This document shows, piece by piece, positions 7,457 to 33,636 of a DNA stretch of 34,057 nucleotides (its first letter is position 1; the number at the start of each line of letters is the position of its first letter). Under the pieces are notes generated by a model that made no database searches, was not told the origin of the DNA, and worked only from the letters and a program-made list of their open reading frames with translations. Origin of the DNA: Candidatus Uhrbacteria bacterium RIFOXYB12_FULL_58_10 (lineage in GTDB: Bacteria; Patescibacteriota; Patescibacteriia; UBA9934; GWF2-40-263); the NCBI GenBank assembly GCA_943354165.1, contig CALRBH010000010.1, positions 1 to 34,057 of the forward strand, given 5' to 3'. A program made the translations under genes and the position numbers.

Positions 7457-7511
7457 TAGGCGTTAGGCTTTAGGCGTTAGGCTTTAGGCGTTAGGCCGGA
7501 GGAAGAAGCGA
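7457..7511. repeat. GGCGTTAGGC-word repeat, partial copy
   Basis: taggcgttaggctttaggcgttaggctttaggcgttaggccggagg: tandem GCGTTAGGCTTTAG units. Confidence 0.85.
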
Positions 7512-7741: not shown

Positions 7742-7921
7742 TTACTTTGATTGCATTTTCTCGTACTGCTCAACGAGCTCACGCTGTTCACGGTTAGCCG
7801 CTTGGATGGCGTTCCGAAACACTTTCTTTTTTTCTTGTGCGGAAGCGGAAGTGAAAAACTCCGAAAAATCGCTTTTCGGCTTAGAGATTCCTTTAAAAAA
7901 CTGCGTAAGATACGCGATCAT
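7742..7921 (-). CDS. 59-aa ORF translationally coupled to the zeta-toxin gene (below the ORF-track cutoff)
   Basis: ATGA overlap with the upstream stop (7918-7921); MIAYLTQFFKGISKPKSDFSEFFTSASAQEKKKVFRNAIQAANREQRELVEQYEKMQSK; followed by a terminator. Confidence 0.6.
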   Translation of the reverse strand: MIAYLTQFFKGISKPKSDFSEFFTSASAQEKKKVFRNAIQAANREQRELVEQYEKMQSK

Positions 7922-8622
7922 ATGATGATTTCCTCTAGCTGCTCCTTACTATATTGATTTGGAAGGTAGGAGTCAATCTGCGATATATTCAAATGCATTC
8001 CTTCTAAACCATTCTCAAAATTCTTAATGAGCAGCGAGAGCTCGATGCCTTCGCCAAAAATCCGCTTGGCTTCATTCACGTGCGCTTGCGATTTGAAATA
8101 AGCATCAATAAATACCTCTCTTGAGACCCGACGCCGTTGTATAGCCTCGCGTTTCTTCGTGAAATCCCACGCGGTAACAGGATCTTGGTAGACAAAAACG
8201 ATTTCGACCTTTCTCTCATTATCAAGTGAACGCTGAATATTCTGTATGGCGCCCGCGTAAGCAAATGTGCCATCGAGTATCGTGCTGAGATCGTTATCCA
8301 GCACATGGTCATAAAGAATATTCACTCCCTTCGTTGCCGCCTTCTGAAATACATGTGCATTTGCTCCCGAATATCCATCGCAAAGCGTACGGATTTCATC
8401 AGCATCGATTCGCACTGGTTTATTTTTATATTGCCCAACTAGCCATTTGGAAATTTCCGTCTTCCCAGCACCCGGCGACCCTGCCATGAATACAGATACG
8501 GGACCTTCTTCAGCAGGATGCTCACTAGCAGGCGCAAAACGATCAACCAGTAATTTCTTATGGCTTTTAACCCAAACGACTGCCTGATCAGATAGTAAGA
8601 GCTCCTCGGGGGTCAATTCCAT
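7918..8622 (-). CDS. Zeta-toxin family kinase
   Basis: Walker A VFMAGSPGAGKTEISKWL, RIDADEIRTLCDGYSGANAHVFQKAATKGVNILYDHVLDNDLSTILDGTFA, REAIQRRRVSREVF. Confidence 0.82.
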   Translation of the reverse strand: MELTPEELLLSDQAVVWVKSHKKLLVDRFAPASEHPAEEGPVSVFMAGSPGAGKTEISKWLVGQYKNKPVRIDADEIRTLCDGYSGANAHVFQKAATKGVNILYDHVLDNDLSTILDGTFAYAGAIQNIQRSLDNERKVEIVFVYQDPVTAWDFTKKREAIQRRRVSREVFIDAYFKSQAHVNEAKRIFGEGIELSLLIKNFENGLEGMHLNISQIDSYLPNQYSKEQLEEIII

Positions 8623-8656
8623 ACCATCCGATCATACACCCTTATGCACAAGACAT

Positions 8657-8772
8657 GAGGCGTTAGGCAGACAAGGCCTTAGGCCAGAGAAAGCAGCGCT
8701 GTTACTGCCTTCGGCTAATGCGTTGCTCGTCGAACTTCCTTTGGCCTCCGGCCTAACGCCTAACGCCTCACG
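8657..8772. repeat. GGCGTTAGGC-word palindromic element, copy B
   Basis: aggcgttaggcagacaaggccttaggcc ... ggcctccggcctaacgcctaacgcctcacg. Confidence 0.85.
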
Positions 8773-9127
8773 ATCCCTGCTTCAAATTTTGCGTAAACCG
8801 ATTCAATATCTTCATGACCTCCGTAAGAAGCCCGTCCACGGTTTCGTAATCCAACTTGGCCGTCCTTGGCATTCGCTTGGAGATAAGGACCTGTGTCTCG
8901 AGTTCGCCTGCAGAACCGAACGCTATGCAGAGAAAACGTGCAAACTCTTTGTCACTCCCCCGCAATTTCCCCTCAGCAATATTCGACGGGATCGAAACGG
9001 CGCAGCGTCGCATCTGGGAAGTCAGCCCATACACCTCTTCCTTGGGAAACTTTTCCGTCAGATGATAGACGGCTACCGCAAGGTCCATGCCCTTTTGCCA
9101 GACGGTAAGATCTTTGTACGTGGGCAT
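8768..9127 (-). CDS. Four-helix-bundle protein (S23 / 23S rRNA-intervening-sequence-protein-like)
   Basis: MPTYKDLTVWQKGMDLAVAVYHLTEKFPKEEVYGLTSQMRRCAVSIPSNIAEG...; start set to ATG 9127 rather than the upstream codon inside the repeat. Confidence 0.9.
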   Translation of the reverse strand: MPTYKDLTVWQKGMDLAVAVYHLTEKFPKEEVYGLTSQMRRCAVSIPSNIAEGKLRGSDKEFARFLCIAFGSAGELETQVLISKRMPRTAKLDYETVDGLLTEVMKILNRFTQNLKQGS

Positions 9128-9131
9128 AGAA

Positions 9132-9234
9132 TAGGCGTTAGGCAGACAAGGCCATAGGCCACAGCTAAAAGTCTCAGACAACACGTTGCTTCCTCCGGCC
9201 TAACGCCTAAAGCCTAACGCCTAACGCCTCACGA
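9132..9234. repeat. GGCGTTAGGC-word palindromic element, copy C
   Basis: taggcgttaggcagacaaggccataggccacagctaaaagtctc...ggcctaacgcctaaagcctaacgcctaacgcctcac. Confidence 0.88.
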
Positions 9235-9237
9235 CGC

Positions 9238-9638: not shown

Positions 9639-10934
9639 TCACTCCAAACCTCCCAAAAACTCCCCCACCCTCTCATCCAACATCAAATGATGCGCCCTAA
9701 CCGGCTTCGCTAAAACAATCCCACCCAACGTCCTACACCGACTCAACGCCACATACACCTGCCCCGCTGCAAACGCCCCGCTCCCCAGGTCGACGACCAC
9801 CTTATCGAACGTCTTGCCTTGCGACTTATGAATCGTGGCCGCCCAGGCCAACTTCAACGGAAGCTGCGTGAACGTTCCGATCTTCTCGCGATCAAGCTTC
9901 CTCGTCTCATTGTCGAGAACCGTCCTATACATCGTCCACTGCGCCGGACCGACCGTGAGCAGTTCCCCTTCGTCGATCTGCACCTGCACACACCCGTTCA
10001 TAAGTTTCGTAACCGTCCCGAGCGTCCCGTTTACCCAGCGGCCTTCTGCATCATTGCGGACGAACATCACGCGTGCACCTGCCTTCAACATCAAATTCTC
10101 ATCCGTCGGCATGTTGCGCAGATCAAACTCCCCTGCTCGCTTTCCACTGAAGGCTTCGGCTCTGCCTGGCAATTCTGCGAGGCGCTTGGTGTTCACGGCA
10201 TCTGCCATCGCATTGATCGTCGTCAGGTGAATCGCGCCTTCGGAGACTAGATTTTCCTGCACCTCCATGGGCCCGACGCGCTTGTTCAGGGTCGCCAATT
10301 GCTCGCCGGTGATAGAGCGGTTACGGACGCCGTTTAGGAGTTCAATGAAACTCTTGTCCTTCTGGCGATAGATCGTATCAAGTTCAACGAAGTCCACGGG
10401 ATGGGCACCCATGAGCGTTCGCATCACGTCCGACGAAAAGAAATACGGCGTTTCGTATCGGTCCAAAAAAGCTTGCCGCTCATCGGTGCGCAAGACTGGA
10501 GGGAGCTGGTACATGTCGCCGATTACGATCACACGCACGCCGCCGAAGGGTTCTTTTACGCGGCGAGAGGCTTGGAGAAAGGCGTCCATGCAGTCCATGA
10601 GGTCGGCGCGGACCATTGAGATTTCGTCGATGACGATGGCGTCGAGCGCTTCGGAAAGTTCTGGGGGCATGGATCTGGCCGAGCGGCGGGCTTCGGCGGG
10701 AGTAATGCTTGGGGAAAACTTAAAGAAGGAGTGAATGGTTTCGCCTTCGATGTTAAGCGCGGCGACTCCCGTCGGCGCAAGGTATGCGCAGTTAAGATCC
10801 GTCGTCTCGCGGAAATGCTTAAGAAGCGTGGACTTTCCCGTCCCCGCTCTTCCCGTCACAAACACAAAACGCGCGTTGCCTTCCATTGCTTGCAGCGCGC
10901 GGAGGAATGCCTGATTCTTCTCAATCTTCTTCAT
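9639..10934 (-). CDS. Pif1/RecD-like superfamily 1 DNA helicase
   Basis: FVTGRAGTGKSTLL, LAPTGVAALNIEGETIHSFF, IVIDEISMVRADLMD, GDMYQLPPV, WAATIHKSQGKTFDKV, VYVALSRCRTLGGI. Confidence 0.92.
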   Translation of the reverse strand: MKKIEKNQAFLRALQAMEGNARFVFVTGRAGTGKSTLLKHFRETTDLNCAYLAPTGVAALNIEGETIHSFFKFSPSITPAEARRSARSMPPELSEALDAIVIDEISMVRADLMDCMDAFLQASRRVKEPFGGVRVIVIGDMYQLPPVLRTDERQAFLDRYETPYFFSSDVMRTLMGAHPVDFVELDTIYRQKDKSFIELLNGVRNRSITGEQLATLNKRVGPMEVQENLVSEGAIHLTTINAMADAVNTKRLAELPGRAEAFSGKRAGEFDLRNMPTDENLMLKAGARVMFVRNDAEGRWVNGTLGTVTKLMNGCVQVQIDEGELLTVGPAQWTMYRTVLDNETRKLDREKIGTFTQLPLKLAWAATIHKSQGKTFDKVVVDLGSGAFAAGQVYVALSRCRTLGGIVLAKPVRAHHLMLDERVGEFLGGLE

Positions 10935-11211
10935 TCGCTGATGCGTTCTTCCCCCGTTTCAGCACGTAGTCAAAAAACTTCTTCGCCGCCGTCATGATCA
11001 CAGGAACCCCAGAAAGCGATCCTTCAACCCGATGGCGGATGGAACTGATGGATTCCTCAATGGAATGCATGCGTTCCTGCGCGTCCAAAACGAAATCATT
11101 TACGTTCTTCACAAGACTGGCGGCTTGGAACACGAGCCAGAAGAGCGCCGCGGAAATCCAGAGGGCGCAGAATGCGAGGACGATGTAGAGGATTTCAAGC
11201 GGGGAGAACAT
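10921..11211 (-). CDS. Small single-TM hypothetical protein overlapping the helicase start
   Basis: MFSPLEILYIVLAFCALWISAALFWLVFQAASLVKNVNDFV...; 14-nt overlap with downstream gene. Confidence 0.65.
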   Translation of the reverse strand: MFSPLEILYIVLAFCALWISAALFWLVFQAASLVKNVNDFVLDAQERMHSIEESISSIRHRVEGSLSGVPVIMTAAKKFFDYVLKRGKNASANEED

Positions 11212-11224
11212 AGGCGTGGAATCG

Positions 11225-11261
11225 TAGGGTGGGCGGGGTGGGCAAGAGGGGGCAAGGGTGA
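11225..11261. repeat. G-rich word repeat, left flank of the four-helix-bundle gene
   Basis: agggtgggcggggtgggcaagagggggcaagggtg; inverted relative to 11641-11680. Confidence 0.8.
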
Positions 11262-11272
11262 TGGAGTTCTCT

Positions 11273-11629
11273 TTATTTAAGAGACTCTATGATTCGTTCC
11301 AGAAAAAAGGCTGCCCGTTTCCGCTTGGCTTCCAGTATACGGCATTTCTCGTTATTGAGGTAGCCAAGTTTACCCGAAAGCTCCAACAGATAGGCACATT
11401 CTGCGATCGAACCTCGACTCATGGTCAAAAATCTCAAGTAGTCCGGTCGTGTTGCTCTGGCTTGGCCTTCGACGATGTTCAAAGCGACCGACGTAGCGGC
11501 ACGCCGAATCTGAGACGTTAGTCCAAATTTTTCTTCAGCTGGAAAATCGACCGTCACTTTATAGACGGAAACCGCAAAGTCATCGGCAGCCTGCCAGGCA
11601 ATTATCTTGTGGTACGGCTGGTCACCCAT
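11273..11629 (-). CDS. Four-helix-bundle protein (S23/IVP-like), second copy
   Basis: MGDQPYHKIIAWQAADDFAVSVYKVTVDFPAEEKFGLTSQIRRAATSVALNIVEGQAR... Confidence 0.88.
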   Translation of the reverse strand: MGDQPYHKIIAWQAADDFAVSVYKVTVDFPAEEKFGLTSQIRRAATSVALNIVEGQARATRPDYLRFLTMSRGSIAECAYLLELSGKLGYLNNEKCRILEAKRKRAAFFLERIIESLK

Positions 11630-11640
11630 AAATAAAACAC

Positions 11641-11680
11641 CTACACCCTTGCCCACCCCTGCCCCCTCTTGCCCCCCCTT
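11641..11680. repeat. C-rich word repeat, right flank of the four-helix-bundle gene
   Basis: ctacacccttgcccacccctgccccctcttgccccccc, approximate reverse complement of the left flank. Confidence 0.8.
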
Positions 11681-11682
11681 CG

Positions 11683-14163
11683 TTAACTTCGCATCATCGC
11701 CTCGAACTGACTCGTAAGCACACCCGTAAGCTTCCCGAGCTCGGCATCCACCGTAGCTGCTTCCAGCGTTTTATCGTCTGCGCGGAAGACAAGGTGCAAA
11801 GCGATAGATTTCTTTCCCTCTTCGACGCCCTTTCCGCGGTACACATCGAAAAGTTCGATTGACTTCAGGAGCGGCGATGACTTTTTCAGTGCCGATTCGA
11901 TCGTGTCGTATTCGGTACGATCGGCGACAACGAGGGCCAAATCACGCTTCACTTCTGGGAAGACGGATGGTGGCGTGTAGGAGATTGGCGATGGGGTGAT
12001 GGCGAGGAGATTTTCCAATTCGATTTCTGCGACGGCAACGCGGCGGTCGATGCCCATGGTCATGGCGGCGTTTGGAGACGCCTCGCACACATAGCCGACG
12101 GTTTTTCCGGCGACGACGACATGCGCGGAGCGGCCGGCGTGGGACCACGACTCACCGTCGTAGGTTTTGAAATCTGCGGCGTAGCCGAGATCACTAAGCA
12201 GGCTCATTACGATCTGACGCATCGAGACGAACGGCTTTTCATCGCCTTGGTTCGAGACGGCGATGGCCAAGCGATATGGCTGCGCGGGCAAGAAGCCCTT
12301 GGCTCCATTCTCTTCTCCCTTTGCCTCTCCATGGAACACGCGAGCGACTTCGAAGATGCGGAGGGACGATTCCTGGTGCTGGTTCTTTGCGACGTTCTCG
12401 AGGAGATTCGGGACGAGGCTGCGGACGAGGTATGGGCGTTCATCGGAAAGCGGGTTCGCGAGCTTGAGGTGATCGGACAGCTTGAAGCCGAGCGTTTCGA
12501 GGGTTTGTGGGCGGGCGTAAGCGTACTGGTACGTTTCCGTGGCGGCGAGCTTTTGGGTGAGGGTTCCGCGCATTTGGCGAGCCATTATGCGCAGCGGATC
12601 TTGAACGGGCGGCTTGCATGGGAAGAGTGGCATCGATGACGGGATCCGCTCGTAGCCGTAGATGCGGGCGACTTCTTCGACGATGTCTTCTGGAATAGCG
12701 ATGTCCTTGGTCGCACGCCAGCTTGGAACTGTGAGCGTCCAGCTCGAACGCTTCGACTTCACGCCGAATCCGAGGCGCGACAAAATGTCGGACACTTCTT
12801 TTGATTTGATGGTGATTCCCAAACGGCTCTCGAGCCAGTCGGAATCGATTTGGAGCTTGAGAGGCTTGGGGAGCTTTTTCGAAACGTCGACGATGGAGGA
12901 AACGACGTTGGCGTTCGGATGAAGGTCCTTCAACAGTTCGACGGCGCGCGCGAGAAGCGTGTCGCAGAGCATTGGATCGAGGGATTTCTCGTAACGCATC
13001 GACGCTTCGGAACGCAAGCCGAGAGCTTGCGATGTCTTTCGAATAACCGACGGATCGAAGTTCGCGGACTCGAGGAGAATCGTCGTCGTCCCATCGGCAA
13101 TGCCTGACTCCTTCCCTCCCATGATCCCCGCAATAACCAAAGCTTTATTCCCTGAGCTTGTCGAAGGGGCGTCTGTGGTAATCAACAGCATCGATGGATC
13201 GAGTTTCCGTTCCACGCCATCGAGTGTGACGAGTGTCTCGCCTTTCTTTGCGAAGCGGACGTTCACTTGAACGTTCTTCTCCTTCGAAAGTTTTGCGGCG
13301 TCGAATGCGTGCAGTGATTGCCCGCCTTCCATCATCACGTAGTTCGTCACGTCGACGACGTTGTTGATAGGACGAATCCCAACGGCTGCCAAACGTCCCT
13401 GCATCCAGGCTGGCGATGGGCCGACTTTCACTCCTTCGACGACCACGGCGGTGTAGCGCGGACAAGCGGCCGCAGACTCAACCTTTACGGCGAGCTTGTA
13501 CCCCTTCCCTGCCCGGCCATTTGCCGGGCCTGACTTAAGTTTCGCTGGCTTCTTCTCGACAAGTTTCAATCGATATAGCGCAGCGAGCTCGCGGGCCATG
13601 CCGAAATGACCGACGAGATCAGGACGGTTCGTCAGCGACTTGTTGTCGACTTCAAAGACGACGTCATCGGCATGCATCGCTTTCGCAAGCGACGTGCCGG
13701 GCTTTGCGGAAATGTCTCCCAGGTCGCGAATATCGTGATCGCCTTCGTTCGAAGCACGATCGAGACCGACTTCTGCGGAGGCGCAGATCATGCCAAAGCT
13801 CGCCTCTCCGCGAATCGTCGTCTCTTGAAGCGTGATGAGATCACCTTCGCCGTGCCAGCGGACTTTCGATCCGGGCAGCGCGACGACGACCAGCATTCCT
13901 TCGGCGACGTTCTTTCCGCCGCAGACGATCTTCACGGCCTTCTTCTCGCCGATGTCTACATTACAAATGCGAAGCTTATCGGCGTTCGGATGCGCAACGA
14001 TGCTCATGATGCGTCCGACTACGATGTGATCCCATGCCTCGGCTTGAGACGCGTACCCTTCCACTTCCACAGTCGACAAACTCAAGCGCTTCGCGAGTTC
14101 CTTGTCAGAGACGTTCGACGGGAGCGTGATGAATTCTTGCAGCCACTTTTTCGAGATCAACAT
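11683..14163 (-). CDS. pheT: Phenylalanine--tRNA ligase subunit beta
   Basis: MLISKKWLQEFITLP start; VVGRIMSIVAHPNADKLRICNVDIG tRNA-binding domain; RPDLVGHFGMARELAALY; C-terminal FDX-ACB-like domain. Confidence 0.97.
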   Translation of the reverse strand: MLISKKWLQEFITLPSNVSDKELAKRLSLSTVEVEGYASQAEAWDHIVVGRIMSIVAHPNADKLRICNVDIGEKKAVKIVCGGKNVAEGMLVVVALPGSKVRWHGEGDLITLQETTIRGEASFGMICASAEVGLDRASNEGDHDIRDLGDISAKPGTSLAKAMHADDVVFEVDNKSLTNRPDLVGHFGMARELAALYRLKLVEKKPAKLKSGPANGRAGKGYKLAVKVESAAACPRYTAVVVEGVKVGPSPAWMQGRLAAVGIRPINNVVDVTNYVMMEGGQSLHAFDAAKLSKEKNVQVNVRFAKKGETLVTLDGVERKLDPSMLLITTDAPSTSSGNKALVIAGIMGGKESGIADGTTTILLESANFDPSVIRKTSQALGLRSEASMRYEKSLDPMLCDTLLARAVELLKDLHPNANVVSSIVDVSKKLPKPLKLQIDSDWLESRLGITIKSKEVSDILSRLGFGVKSKRSSWTLTVPSWRATKDIAIPEDIVEEVARIYGYERIPSSMPLFPCKPPVQDPLRIMARQMRGTLTQKLAATETYQYAYARPQTLETLGFKLSDHLKLANPLSDERPYLVRSLVPNLLENVAKNQHQESSLRIFEVARVFHGEAKGEENGAKGFLPAQPYRLAIAVSNQGDEKPFVSMRQIVMSLLSDLGYAADFKTYDGESWSHAGRSAHVVVAGKTVGYVCEASPNAAMTMGIDRRVAVAEIELENLLAITPSPISYTPPSVFPEVKRDLALVVADRTEYDTIESALKKSSPLLKSIELFDVYRGKGVEEGKKSIALHLVFRADDKTLEAATVDAELGKLTGVLTSQFEAMMRS
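13150..13170. repeat. CCCTGAGCTTGTCGAAGGG micro-repeat inserted in-frame in pheT
   Basis: ttccctgagcttgtcgaagggg; encodes the PSTSSG segment between LLIT and NKALVIAG. Confidence 0.7.
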
Positions 14164-16262: not shown

Positions 16263-16350
16263 GGAGGCGTTAGGCTTTAGGCGTTAGGCCGGAGGCAGCA
16301 ACATTGCAGTTTCCTGTGGCCTAAGGCCTTGTCTGCCTAATGCCTAGCGG
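16263..16350. repeat. GGCGTTAGGC-word palindromic element, copy D (inverted orientation)
   Basis: aggcgttaggctttaggcgttaggccggagg...gtggcctaaggccttgtctgcctaatgcct; reverse complement of copies B, C and E. Confidence 0.87.
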
Positions 16351-16357
16351 CCTTATC

Positions 16358-17692
16358 TTAGTGTTTCCGAATGATTCCGGCAATTGTTTCCTGCTGCGTT
16401 TTGAGGAGCTCGGGAGACGTCGCTTCGATGTTGAGACGGATCAACGGCTCCGTATTCGATTTCCTTACGTTGAACCACCAGTCGGCGAATTCATAGCGGG
16501 CGCCGTCCATGCGTTCCACAAGGACCGCGTCCTTTGCGTACTTCGCATCGAGGGCGGCGAGCACGGCGTCCTTGTCTTCCACCTCGAAGTTCGTCTCCTC
16601 GCTGCGTGCGTACATACGGACAGGTGCGAGCAGTTCGGAAAATTTCTTGCCGGATTCCGCAAGGCGCTTGAGCACGAGGAGCATGGTGAACTCACTCGCT
16701 TCCATACCGGAGAACTCCGGATAGAAATAATGCGCGGACACTTCCCCGCCAATCGCGGCCTTCTCGTTGATGACACGCTTGATGATGTTGGTACGCCCGA
16801 CTTTCTCCCAGATACTTTTTCCGCCCGCACGAACGATAGCATCGCGCACGGCCCAACTTGCGTTTGGACTCCAGACGACGGCGGCACCCGGATGCGCGCG
16901 CAAACGATCTTCCGCCAAGAAGGCGAGCATGTGATCGCCGGAAACGAAGTCCCCGTTCTCATCCAGGAAGCCAATGCGATCCGCGTCACCGTCGAAGGCA
17001 ACACCGATGTCAGCCTCCACTTCGACCATCTTGTCTTCAAGGTCTTCGAGTGTTTCGACTTTAATCGGATTCGCCTCGTGGTTCGGGAACGTTCCATCCG
17101 GATCGAAATACATCGCGGTGAGATTTGCATCGAGCCGATCAAAAATCTTTGGAAGGATAATACCGGCCATGCCGTTGCCGGCATCGATGGCGACGTTCAT
17201 GCCGTTCAACTTGATCTCCCCGATCAGCTCGAACATCTTTTCGATGTACGGCTGTGTAACATCCAAAACCGTCGTTATTCCTTCCAAACCTTCCGAACTT
17301 CCCAAACCTTCCAAACCTTTCAGCATCTCCGTTCCGCTCACCGGCATCGCGTTTCCGCGACTCACCTTGAACCCATTGTACTGCGGAGGATTATGCGACG
17401 CGGTCACCATCACGCCGGCTTCATGCTCTTCGTACGCACCGACGGCAAAGTTGAACATCGTGGTGGTACACATGCCGATATCCACCGCATCAGCTCCTTC
17501 TGCGTGGATCCCGGCGATCACGGCTTTGGCAAAAAGCGGGCTTGTGGGACGCATATCCTGGCCAACCACAACGGTTTTCGCCCCTGTGAGGCGCACGGTC
17601 GCCCGGCCTACGGCAAAGGCCAGTTCTTCAGAAAGCTGATCCGTCGTCCCACGAATATCATACGAGCGAAAAATCTCTTCCTGAAATTGCAT
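16358..17692 (-). CDS. Phosphomannomutase/phosphoglucomutase
   Basis: SYDIRGTTDQLSEELAFAVGRA, VMVTASHNPPQYNGFK, VAFDGDADRIGFLDENG, FNVRKSNTEPLIRLNIEA. Confidence 0.94.
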   Translation of the reverse strand: MQFQEEIFRSYDIRGTTDQLSEELAFAVGRATVRLTGAKTVVVGQDMRPTSPLFAKAVIAGIHAEGADAVDIGMCTTTMFNFAVGAYEEHEAGVMVTASHNPPQYNGFKVSRGNAMPVSGTEMLKGLEGLGSSEGLEGITTVLDVTQPYIEKMFELIGEIKLNGMNVAIDAGNGMAGIILPKIFDRLDANLTAMYFDPDGTFPNHEANPIKVETLEDLEDKMVEVEADIGVAFDGDADRIGFLDENGDFVSGDHMLAFLAEDRLRAHPGAAVVWSPNASWAVRDAIVRAGGKSIWEKVGRTNIIKRVINEKAAIGGEVSAHYFYPEFSGMEASEFTMLLVLKRLAESGKKFSELLAPVRMYARSEETNFEVEDKDAVLAALDAKYAKDAVLVERMDGARYEFADWWFNVRKSNTEPLIRLNIEATSPELLKTQQETIAGIIRKH

Positions 17693-17720: not shown

Positions 17721-17763
17721 GCCCCTTACACCCCTTACAACCCTTACAACCCTTCCCACCCTC
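17721..17763. repeat. CCCTTACAACCC-word repeat, intergenic
   Basis: gccccttacaccccttacaacccttacaacccttcccaccctc. Confidence 0.75.
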
Positions 17764-18381: not shown

Positions 18382-18472
18382 GCATTAGGCAGACAAGGCG
18401 TTAGGCCACAGCTAAAAGTCTCGAGTAATTCGCTGCTTCCTTCGGCCTAACGCCTAAAGCCTAACGCCTCAC
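18379..18472. repeat. GGCGTTAGGC-word palindromic element, copy E
   Basis: taggcattaggcagacaaggcgttaggccacagctaaaagtctcgag...ttcggcctaacgcctaaagcctaacgcctcac; near-identical to copy C. Confidence 0.88.
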
Positions 18473-18482
18473 ATTCCCACGC

Positions 18483-20936
18483 ATGCCCGACATCACCGAA
18501 AAATTCTCCACGAACCTCAAGACCGTGCTCACCCGAGCATTGGTGCTTGCGGTTGAGCGTGGAGAAAGCTCCGTGTATCCCACTCATCTCCTATGGGCGA
18601 TGGGGACACAGAAAGGCTGCATCGGTCGTCAGCTGCTTGAGCGCGCACACATCACGGAGGCGATGCTCACCGTATTGATCGATGGCCCACGTGAACATGT
18701 GAGCACAGAGCGCACCATCACATTGCATCTTTCAAACGAGGCGAAGCGCGTGCTTGAGAAGGCCGTGCTTTCCGCGAACACGCACGGTCACGCATTCGTT
18801 GGGACCGAGCACCTTATCTTCGGCCTGCTGAACGCCGGCGGAGACGCGGTTGAGGCGTTCTTCGCCAAGCAGGCGGTGAACCTGCCGGAGCTGCGGAATC
18901 AGACGGCGGAGGTGTTGAAGAATGCGTCGAAAATTGCGGAAATCGTTGGGACGAGTGCAAAGACGGAGGAAGCAAAAGGCGCGGAGGTTGCGGATCAGAA
19001 GAAAACCCCTGCCCTCGATTTCTTTGGCCGCGACCTCACCACGGAAGAGCTGCAGTCACGCATCGATCCGGTGATTGGCCGCGAGAGCGAGATTGAACGC
19101 GTCATGGAAATTCTTTGCCGCCGCACCAAGAACAATCCGCTCCTTCTTGGCGAACCAGGCGTAGGAAAGACCGCGATCGTCGAAGGGCTCGCGAAGCGCA
19201 TCATGTCTGGCGACGTTCCCGCTCCCCTGCGCGGAAAGCGTCTTGTTGCCCTCGATCTTCCAGGGTTGATTGCTGGAACGATGTACCGCGGAGAATTCGA
19301 GCAGCGTCTTCGCCAGGTCATGGAAGAGGCGCGCAAGGAACCTGACCTGATTCTTTTCGTCGATGAGATGCACACGATTGTCGGAGCTGGGTCCGCTGGT
19401 GGGTCTATGGATGCGGCGAACATGCTGAAACCTGCGCTTGCGCGTGGCGACATTCGATTGATCGGCGCGACGACGCACGCAGAATTCAAGAAGCATATCG
19501 AAGCAGACGCGGCGCTTGAGCGTCGTTTTCAAACCGTGACGGTGGAGGAGCCGACTGTCGCGCGTGCGCTCGATATTGTTCATGGCCTCACGCCGCATTA
19601 CGAGAAATATCACGGCGTGGCCATTCTCCCCGAGGCGGTAAACGCCGCGGTGGAACTTTCTGTCCGCCATCTTTTCGATAAAAAACTCCCGGACAAGGCG
19701 ATTGATCTTCTCGATGAAGCCGCCGCGGGCGTCCGCGTGCGCGCACGCATCCCTGCTCCGGCAGACGCGCGCCGCCTCGCCGCCGCGAAGCTCGAAGAAG
19801 TGCGGGACGCCAAGCGCCTTGCCGTCGTCGAAGAACGATTCATGGACGCCGTCGCGCTCAAACGCGAGGAAGATCGATTAGCGAAAGAGCTAGAAATCCC
19901 AACCTCCCAAACCTTCCCAACCTCCCCAACCCTTACGGTCGGTGTCCGCGAAGTCGCCGGCGTCGTTTCCCGCCGCACAGGGATTCCGCTTACTGACCTC
20001 ATGCAGGAGGAGCAGGAAGCGCTTCTTACATTGGAAGCGCAGCTACGCGAGCATGTGATCGGCCAGGACGTCACCGTAAAAACGGTTGCTTCGGCCATCC
20101 GCCGCGCAAAGGCCGGGCTTGCGGCACCGAAGCGCCCGCTTGCCTCGTTCCTTTTCCTCGGCCCATCGGGCGTTGGGAAAACTGAACTCGCACGGTCGCT
20201 TGCACAAACACTTTTCAAAGACCCAAAGGCGCTGATCCGATTGGACATGTCGGAGTTTTCAGAATCCTTCACTGCGTCGAAACTCGTCGGCTCCCCTGCC
20301 GGATACGTCGGCTACCGCGAAGGCGCGAAGCTGACGGATGCGGTTCGCTCACGTCCGCACGCCGTGGTGCTCTTCGACGAAATCGAAAAGGCACATAAGG
20401 ACGTGCAGAACCTTTTGCTTCAGATTCTCGAGGAAGGTGAGCTTGCCGATGCGACTGGCCGCAGCGTCTCTTTCCGCCAGGCGGTCATCGTCCTTACGAG
20501 CAACGTGGGGTTGGAACGGTTCGGAAAAGTCGGCATCGGATTTGCCGGAAGCATCGATGATGCGAAGACCTCGCTCACCGCCGACGTCCGCGAGGAGCTC
20601 ATGGAGCGTTTCCGCCCGGAGCTTGTGAACCGCCTCGACCACCTGTGCATGTTCTCCCCGCTTTCCGAGGACATCCTCACCACCATCGCCACCCGCCAGC
20701 TGTCCGAGCTTGCCGGCCGCCTTCAGGAACGCGGCGTCGAACTCCGCTGGAACGAGGAAATCCCTAAGCATCTCGTAAAAAACGTCGATCAGACCGTTGG
20801 CGCCCGCGACATCCGCCGCAAACTCATCGCCAGCATCGAAAGCCCGCTAGCCGACCGGCTTATCGCATGCGCCCCAAAGCGCATCGCCCTCAAACTCCGC
20901 GGGGACGCGATCGAACTCTCGGAACCCCGCCGATAG
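18483..20936 (+). CDS. clpC: ATP-dependent Clp protease ATP-binding subunit (ClpC-type AAA+)
   Basis: Clp_N domain, GEPGVGKTAIVEGLAKRI, LFVDEMHTIVGAG, GPSGVGKTELARSLAQTLF, VLFDEIEKAHKDVQNLLLQILEEGELADATGR. Confidence 0.95.
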   Translation: MPDITEKFSTNLKTVLTRALVLAVERGESSVYPTHLLWAMGTQKGCIGRQLLERAHITEAMLTVLIDGPREHVSTERTITLHLSNEAKRVLEKAVLSANTHGHAFVGTEHLIFGLLNAGGDAVEAFFAKQAVNLPELRNQTAEVLKNASKIAEIVGTSAKTEEAKGAEVADQKKTPALDFFGRDLTTEELQSRIDPVIGRESEIERVMEILCRRTKNNPLLLGEPGVGKTAIVEGLAKRIMSGDVPAPLRGKRLVALDLPGLIAGTMYRGEFEQRLRQVMEEARKEPDLILFVDEMHTIVGAGSAGGSMDAANMLKPALARGDIRLIGATTHAEFKKHIEADAALERRFQTVTVEEPTVARALDIVHGLTPHYEKYHGVAILPEAVNAAVELSVRHLFDKKLPDKAIDLLDEAAAGVRVRARIPAPADARRLAAAKLEEVRDAKRLAVVEERFMDAVALKREEDRLAKELEIPTSQTFPTSPTLTVGVREVAGVVSRRTGIPLTDLMQEEQEALLTLEAQLREHVIGQDVTVKTVASAIRRAKAGLAAPKRPLASFLFLGPSGVGKTELARSLAQTLFKDPKALIRLDMSEFSESFTASKLVGSPAGYVGYREGAKLTDAVRSRPHAVVLFDEIEKAHKDVQNLLLQILEEGELADATGRSVSFRQAVIVLTSNVGLERFGKVGIGFAGSIDDAKTSLTADVREELMERFRPELVNRLDHLCMFSPLSEDILTTIATRQLSELAGRLQERGVELRWNEEIPKHLVKNVDQTVGARDIRRKLIASIESPLADRLIACAPKRIALKLRGDAIELSEPRR

Positions 20937-22944: not shown

Positions 22945-22945
22945 T

Positions 22946-23063
22946 ATGAAACGACAAAAAACAAACGACAAACGACAAAGAAAAATTGAAAACGACAAAC
23001 GTTTAAAAATTTGTCGTTTTTCGCCTTTCTTTGTCGTTTGGGATTTCTCGTTTGTCGTTTCAT
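22946..23063. repeat. AAACGACAAA-word palindromic element, full copy
   Basis: Terminal inverted repeats ATGAAACGACAAA ... TTTGTCGTTTCAT with internal word copies on both arms. Confidence 0.88.
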
Positions 23064-23068
23064 AAAAT

Positions 23069-28647: not shown

Positions 28648-28709
28648 AAACGATAAACAAAAAACGACAAACGACAAAGAAAGATGGAAAACGACAAAGG
28701 AGGGAAAAG
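28648..28709. repeat. AAACGACAAA-word repeat, single-arm copy
   Basis: aaacgataaacaaaaaacgacaaacgacaaagaaagatggaaaacgacaaagg. Confidence 0.82.
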
Positions 28710-33526: not shown

Positions 33527-33535
33527 ATTGGGCTA

Positions 33536-33620
33536 AACGACAAACGATAAACTCCAAACGACAAACGTAGGAACTTTTTCCCTTTTGTCGTTTTCCCTTT
33601 TCTTTGTCGTTTGTCGTTTT
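33536..33620. repeat. AAACGACAAA-word palindromic element between virB4 and the upstream gene
   Basis: aaacgacaaacgataaactccaaacgacaaacg...cccttttgtcgttttcccttttctttgtcgtttgtcgtttt. Confidence 0.85.
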
Positions 33621-33636
33621 ATTTGGCATTTCATAT

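Follow-up and report, generated by a model that had tools for sequence, protein, structure and literature searches.

Inverted word repeats around a four-helix-bundle gene: a probable family of mobile intergenic elements with gene-specific words

Why should a small helix-bundle gene in an ordinary intergenic position be boxed by two inverted copies of a short repeated word, and is this arrangement a peculiarity of one locus or a general one? The question is raised by positions 11225-11680 of the window, which is the whole stretch of 34,057 nt that was analysed. Here a gene of 118 codons lies on the minus strand, with its ATG at 11629 and its stop codon at 11273-11275, and is surrounded by the following features:

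10921-11211, minus strand: ORF of 96 aa, the downstream neighbour, which adjoins pheT directly in the empty site of the relative G001
11226-11260, minus strand: 3' word arm, approximately the reverse complement of the word (local alignment score 24)
11261-11272, minus strand: 3' inner edge, TAAATAAAGAGAACTCCATCACCC in the gene copy and ATAAAAAGTATTCCATCACCC in the gene-less copies, conserved
11273-11629, minus strand: four-helix-bundle gene, 118 aa, TIGR02436 / PF05635 (23S rRNA-intervening sequence protein family), from profile matches, predicted fold and the ortholog in the relative G019
11630-11644, minus strand: 5' inner edge, GTGTAGGTGTTTTATTT in the gene copy and GTGTAGGAAATCTTTTTAT in the gene-less copies
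11645-11678, minus strand: 5' word arm, in gene sense GGGGGGGCAAGAGGGGGCAGGGGTGGGCAAGGGTG, purine-rich, an inverted repeat with 11226-11260 that pairs in the predicted RNA fold
11683-14163, minus strand: pheT, the upstream neighbour, also in G019 and G038

The two arms form an inverted pair of 50 nt that is 72% complementary, and 92% complementary over a 25-nt stretch within it. In the predicted RNA fold of the whole arm-gene-arm unit, a long closing stem is formed with a z-score of -5.6. Thus the gene is boxed by inverted repeats, as the earlier note had claimed from the letters of this DNA, and beyond chance as judged by the census described below; of the two distances given there, the left arm does lie 12 nt from the stop codon, whereas the right arm lies some 16 nt from the ATG, on its upstream side, instead of 12 nt. 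The gene is not within a 23S rRNA gene, and there is no rRNA match in the window. Its immediate neighbours are pheT and the 96-aa ORF, and no reverse transcriptase adjoins it.

To our knowledge, PF05635 has gone without an assigned function for decades, though its members sit in 23S rRNA intervening sequences. Profile searches placed the 118-aa protein in this four-helix-bundle (IVP/S23) family, scoring 108.8 bits against PF05635 (curated cut-off 33.8, E-value 2e-31) and 105.7 bits against TIGR02436 (cut-off 24, E-value 1.4e-30). Superposition of its AF2 model (pLDDT 96) onto XCC0516 (PDB 2GSC) yielded a TM-score of 0.96, compared to 0.77-0.79 for Avd of the diversity-generating retroelements (PDB 4dwl and 8ub7). 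The homolog XCC0516 is reported to be a homopentameric ring (cited in PMC4990558). The helix-bundle protein is under strong purifying selection: compared with its ortholog in G019, which occupies the corresponding locus and is 69% identical in protein sequence, pS is 0.79 and pN 0.20, and the values overall are pN 0.20-0.26 with pS 0.72-0.89.

The genome of 852 kb (termed G000 where a comparison needs it) carries six PF05635 genes, each with word arms and each with another word; in two of the six, the 3' arm is translated into the C-terminus of the protein. The earlier note had spoken of two four-helix-bundle genes, each boxed by a different word; the other one in the window is at 8771-9127, boxed by GCCTAAC/GTTAGGC. 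Each of its sides is a whole hairpin, not a single arm. Features of other word families in the window include:

8655-8772, no strand: complete F-word hairpin downstream of the second gene, from word match
8771-9127, minus strand: second four-helix-bundle gene, 119 aa, word family F (GTTAGGC), from profile match
9132-9235, no strand: complete F-word hairpin upstream of the second gene, from word match
16263-16345, no strand: gene-less F-word hairpin, from word match
22945-23064, no strand: gene-less C-word (AAACGAC) hairpin with arms of 60 nt, whose cognate gene lies on contig 18

Further copies of these words are scattered over the window. GTTAGGC (family F) arrays occur without a four-helix-bundle gene at 7457-7496 and 18445-18469, and F arrays flank a Zeta-toxin-like gene at 7918-8622. 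Two more AAACGAC (family C) copies, at 28648-28678 and 33535-33625, are a one-sided array and a gene-less hairpin. Single word-D arrays at 17280-17319 and 19898-19931 (CCTTCCAAACCTTCCGAAC... and CCCAACCTCCCAAACC...) run in frame through a phosphoglucomutase-like and a ClpB/ClpC-like gene, where they encode the linkers GLEGLGSSEGLEG and IPTSQTFPTSPT. A single word-B array, CCCTTACAA, lies at 17723-17762, immediately upstream of the phosphoglucomutase-like gene.

A census of this genome and 40 relatives, in which the same window geometry was applied to every ORF with enough flank and an inverted match between upstream and downstream sequence was called by local alignment, revealed inverted arms scoring at least 16 at 53 of the 67 four-helix-bundle genes, compared to 27 of 1351 other ORFs. 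At a score of at least 18, the counts are 50/67 and 15/1351. The 2% of other ORFs that are bracketed lie, in the present genome, mostly between two independent solo hairpins of the same family, one on each side. The arrangement extends across phyla, as 65 of 77 loci reached a score of at least 16 in an 80-locus sample, which consists of the 80 loci in a named collection that best matched one protein rather than a random draw and covers Planctomycetota, Omnitrophota, Desulfobacterota, Bacteroidota, Cyanobacteria, Actinomycetota, Pseudomonadota, a Nanoarchaeia record and others. The general system of word repeat and four-helix-bundle gene that the earlier note suggested is therefore supported: most related genes do have flanking repeats, and unrelated genes have them far less often.

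About 20% of the family members have no recognisable arms, including the Avd genes linked to reverse transcriptases, the suffix-type genes (TIGR04258) and some others. Both tested Avd-type genes next to reverse transcriptases are without arms, and the suffix-type genes are mostly so; these two groups thus serve as an internal negative control. Three suffix-type genes of 178-181 aa, from three genera (L028, L267 and G019:C1:106164), have in common an upstream TAGGTC..TAGGACC-like motif and no gene-specific word.

Further analysis of 106 arms revealed a best period of 7 nt in 65, 8 nt in 21 and 9 nt in 14 of them, against a flat distribution in shuffled arms, and AG as the commonest conserved dinucleotide. 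Two simpler ideas about the words were rejected. There is no universal word, as the words differ nearly from gene to gene and only the 7-nt period and the frequent conserved AG recur. Nor is the array fixed at five words, one for each subunit of a pentamer, since array lengths vary widely and reach about 300 nt in Anabaena sp. 90.

The genes have cognate words, which mostly match in their own genome. Similarity between words correlates with similarity between the proteins (rho 0.32, against a permutation maximum of 0.25); after correction for composition and restriction to between-genome pairs, rho is 0.17 and is reached by none of 2000 permutations. At up to two mismatches, the word of the 118-aa gene, GTGGGCAAGGGTGGGCA, has nine matches in five loci here and at most three in any of the 40 relatives. 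Among the 41 genomes, the family A word matches 216 times here and at most 32 times elsewhere, the genome with 32 having a gene that carries a similar word, whereas one word of G019 matches 46 times in G019 and at most twice elsewhere. For four genes of the present genome, arm matches in their own genome and in G019 number 44 and 1, 35 and 7, 23 and 2, and 18 and 0; for four genes of G019, matches in G000 and in G019 number 1 and 31, 1 and 7, 3 and 10, and 0 and 8. There are exceptions to this pattern: at two mismatches the arms of the 118-aa gene have seven matches in G000 and 14 in G019, and the corresponding counts are 9 and 21 for family F and 14 and 14 for the gene at G019:776265. Co-occurrence of subfamily and cognate word, for which the earlier note had asked, is thus seen both in the correlation and in the enrichment of words in the genome of the cognate gene.

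That note did not cover the dispersed gene-less hairpins, the presence and absence of elements at orthologous sites, or the likeness to rRNA intervening sequences. Scanning 718 of the 852 kb of the genome revealed 160 inverted pairs, compared to 20 in a Markov control. The scanned 718 kb holds 81 short gene-less hairpins, which fall into six families with words matching the six genes, one or two of the assignments being loose (a GC-rich hairpin in family D, for example). Word hairpin families for which no matching four-helix-bundle gene was found occur at C9:11340, C11:1800, C15:10505 and C12:18582 of the same genome. In four gene-less copies of the family of the 118-aa gene (family E), the inner edges outside the word are also shared with the gene copy, which is what internal deletion of a coding copy would produce; in the other families the ends shared by coding and gene-less copies are at the level of the word. 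Compensatory pairing between the arms of individual elements is absent in families A and B, weak in C and D, and in E covers an n of only 3. In the abundant family A, arms belonging to the same element pair no better than those taken from separate elements, so that the pairing shows no extra covariation, a point against the reading of the elements proposed below.

These hairpins might form and spread by themselves, through slippage and hairpin-templated copying, with the gene merely tending to sit inside. The excess of solos over genes (81 against 6) and the single arrays in frame within other genes fit this view, which we nevertheless regard as quite improbable, because word similarity tracks protein similarity, the inner edges are shared by solos and gene copy, and no word hairpins were found in samples of 80 and 100 kb from two genomes that lack the gene. 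Coverage by samples applies to G001, G021 and G024; about 196 kb of G001 was sampled, and it retains solos of one word but not the cognate gene.

The solos lie at a median of 11-15 nt from the neighbouring genes. Both neighbours are known for 61 intergenic solos; of these, 48 separate co-directional genes, 9 convergent and 4 divergent ones, against a background of 352, 91 and 92. Some solos sit inside operons such as those of the ATP synthase and groES-groEL genes. This preference fits tolerance within transcripts. It also leads us to reject ordinary terminators by gene context, while the census and the Markov control do the same for chance or low-complexity sequence; although some arms are G-rich or simple, an explanation of either kind is hardly credible.

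Comparison of the congeners G019 and G001, which are 77% identical, revealed nine orthologous intergenic sites at which G019 carries an element, with a gene in three cases, whereas G001 is empty or almost empty there. At the cleanest site, G019 has a 96-bp hairpin where the flanking genes are only a few nucleotides apart in G001. No target-site duplication is visible at the nine sites, where the flanks are only about 77% identical. Cyanobacterial plasmid pairs showed arm-gene-arm present or absent as a whole unit. In Anabaena sp. 90, a unit lies between cas6 and cas4 (L241 1001-1369) of a plasmid, whereas a Dolichospermum plasmid, 99% identical, lacks it and has a different repeat at that site. 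Similarly, Picosynechococcus PCC 7003 has a unit between cas10 and cmr3 (L239 1001-1357) that PCC 7002 lacks, and Pseudanabaena galeata has one at cas6-cas4 that strain ABRG5-3 lacks. Presence and absence at orthologous sites, by gain or loss, is clear.

The locus of the 118-aa gene itself may have a longer history. The order pheT, gene, 96-aa ORF and Pif1-like helicase is common to the present genome and G019, and pheT followed by the gene is also found in G038 (L270, G038:C20), which belongs to another family of the same order, while the locus is empty in G001. Each of the three occupied loci has its own word, and both arms changed together in the two complete ones. The simplest reading of these sequences would be an old insertion in which the word turns over, although independent insertion at the same site may have occurred instead.

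The same sites bear on whether the protein could be a domesticated RNA- or DNA-binding regulator, with the hairpins as its binding sites in transcripts, its own arms as autoregulatory sites, and spread by slippage and rare copying. Strong purifying selection on the protein and the placement of the hairpins close to co-directional genes would suit a regulator, as would the effect on transcript stability or coupling that has been proposed for cyanobacterial heptamer hairpins (PMC2670836). However, complete units of arm, gene and arm are present in one genome and missing from another at orthologous sites, words turn over at the pheT locus, and the occupied sites are not the same in congeners, a pattern more in keeping with a mobile element than with a conserved regulon; we consider a regulatory network unlikely.

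Altogether, we propose, with a probability of about 0.7, that the locus is one member of an intergenic element family, dispersed and probably mobile, whose copies are composed of a word array, a four-helix-bundle gene and the inverted word array, with MITE-like gene-less derivatives; the protein would recognise the stem of its own word, and the elements would be an intergenic relative of the rRNA intervening sequences. In the mechanism that we infer, the gene-bearing copy would be the autonomous form and the gene-less hairpins of the same word its non-autonomous derivatives. The element RNA would fold into a long stem that carries the gene in its loop, and the protein, a pentameric ring by homology, would bind its own word stem, most likely in this RNA. 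RNA is the likelier ligand by analogy, since Avd is part of a ribonucleoprotein (PDB 8ub7) and RNase III cuts the stem-loops formed by rRNA intervening sequences that carry this ORF (PMC4990558). Such word specificity would let word and protein diverge together while the two arms stay alike. No known catalytic domain of the protein would account for copying, which counts against the proposal. We suggest that new copies are made by host enzymes, because G019, a genome of 1.0 Mb with eight such genes and word hairpins, gave no RVT_1 and no Y1_Tnp match in profile searches.

Alternatively, a Y1 transposase or a reverse transcriptase might move the hairpins in trans, as in REPIN/RAYT or diversity-generating systems, with the four-helix protein as an accessory like Avd. 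The fold shared with Avd, four reverse transcriptase matches in the present genome and an architecture that parallels REPINs (PMC3116915) speak for this possibility, but it is very improbable given the profile searches of G019, the lack of a Y1_Tnp match in G000 as well, and the armless Avd-type genes beside reverse transcriptases.

REPINs with their RAYTs are still the nearest functional analogue that we see. Both systems have dispersed intergenic inverted short repeats that form hairpins, with each repeat family tied to a protein gene of its own (PMC3116915), and the dispersed inverted doublets linked to the gene's own repeat, which characterise REPINs, are found here. The cognate Y1 (RAYT) transposase gene is not, as far as G000 and G019 are concerned; the present protein has neither a Y1 transposase domain nor a known catalytic site, and its repeats are tandem words of 7-10 nt. 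The 23S rRNA intervening sequences with S23p/IVP are similar in that a PF05635 ORF lies within a stem of terminal inverted repeats, as the 118-aa gene does. The intervening sequence of Coxiella follows the same design inside rRNA: it is bounded by terminal inverted repeats, and tandem copies of the heptamer GACAGAT directly precede the S23p start (PMC4990558). By contrast, the present elements lie between genes and are numerous within a genome; each has its own word, there are many gene-less hairpin relatives, and their protein is under purifying selection, whereas the intervening-sequence protein is decaying. Gene-less copies that resemble internal deletions of a coding copy recall MITEs, but the present elements differ in that there is no transposase and no target-site duplication was seen. 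Avd shares the fold and is part of a structured ribonucleoprotein, but Avd-type genes adjoin a reverse transcriptase and lack word arms.

The cyanobacterial STRR are 7-bp tandem repeats, hairpin-capable, intergenic and of no known function, and the consulted part of PMC2670836 describes them without an associated gene, whereas the present words are tied to a cognate four-helix-bundle gene. TAGGGAG arrays flank a four-helix-bundle gene in a Nostoc plasmid, for example, and the STRR hairpins and the present word hairpins may well be the same. More broadly, and only tentatively, at slightly less than even odds, there may be a widespread class of intergenic selfish elements whose spread relies on no transposase or reverse transcriptase encoded by the element itself, in which a non-enzymatic four-helix-bundle ring reads a fast-evolving hairpin word and each protein maintains and copies its own word family only; the rRNA intervening sequences and the cyanobacterial heptamer hairpins would be special cases. 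We found no paper linking PF05635 genes with cognate words in the open literature, to which the search was confined. A cognate genomic word would give many PF05635 proteins a concrete candidate ligand, link three oddities that were described separately (rRNA intervening sequences, heptamer STRR hairpins and free-standing S23 proteins), and point to a spread of repeats that involves neither transposase nor reverse transcriptase. Finally, a CRISPR-discovery paper lists '23S rRNA IVP' among the genes near CRISPR adaptation modules (PMC10910872), which may be explained by insertion of such elements in cas operons.
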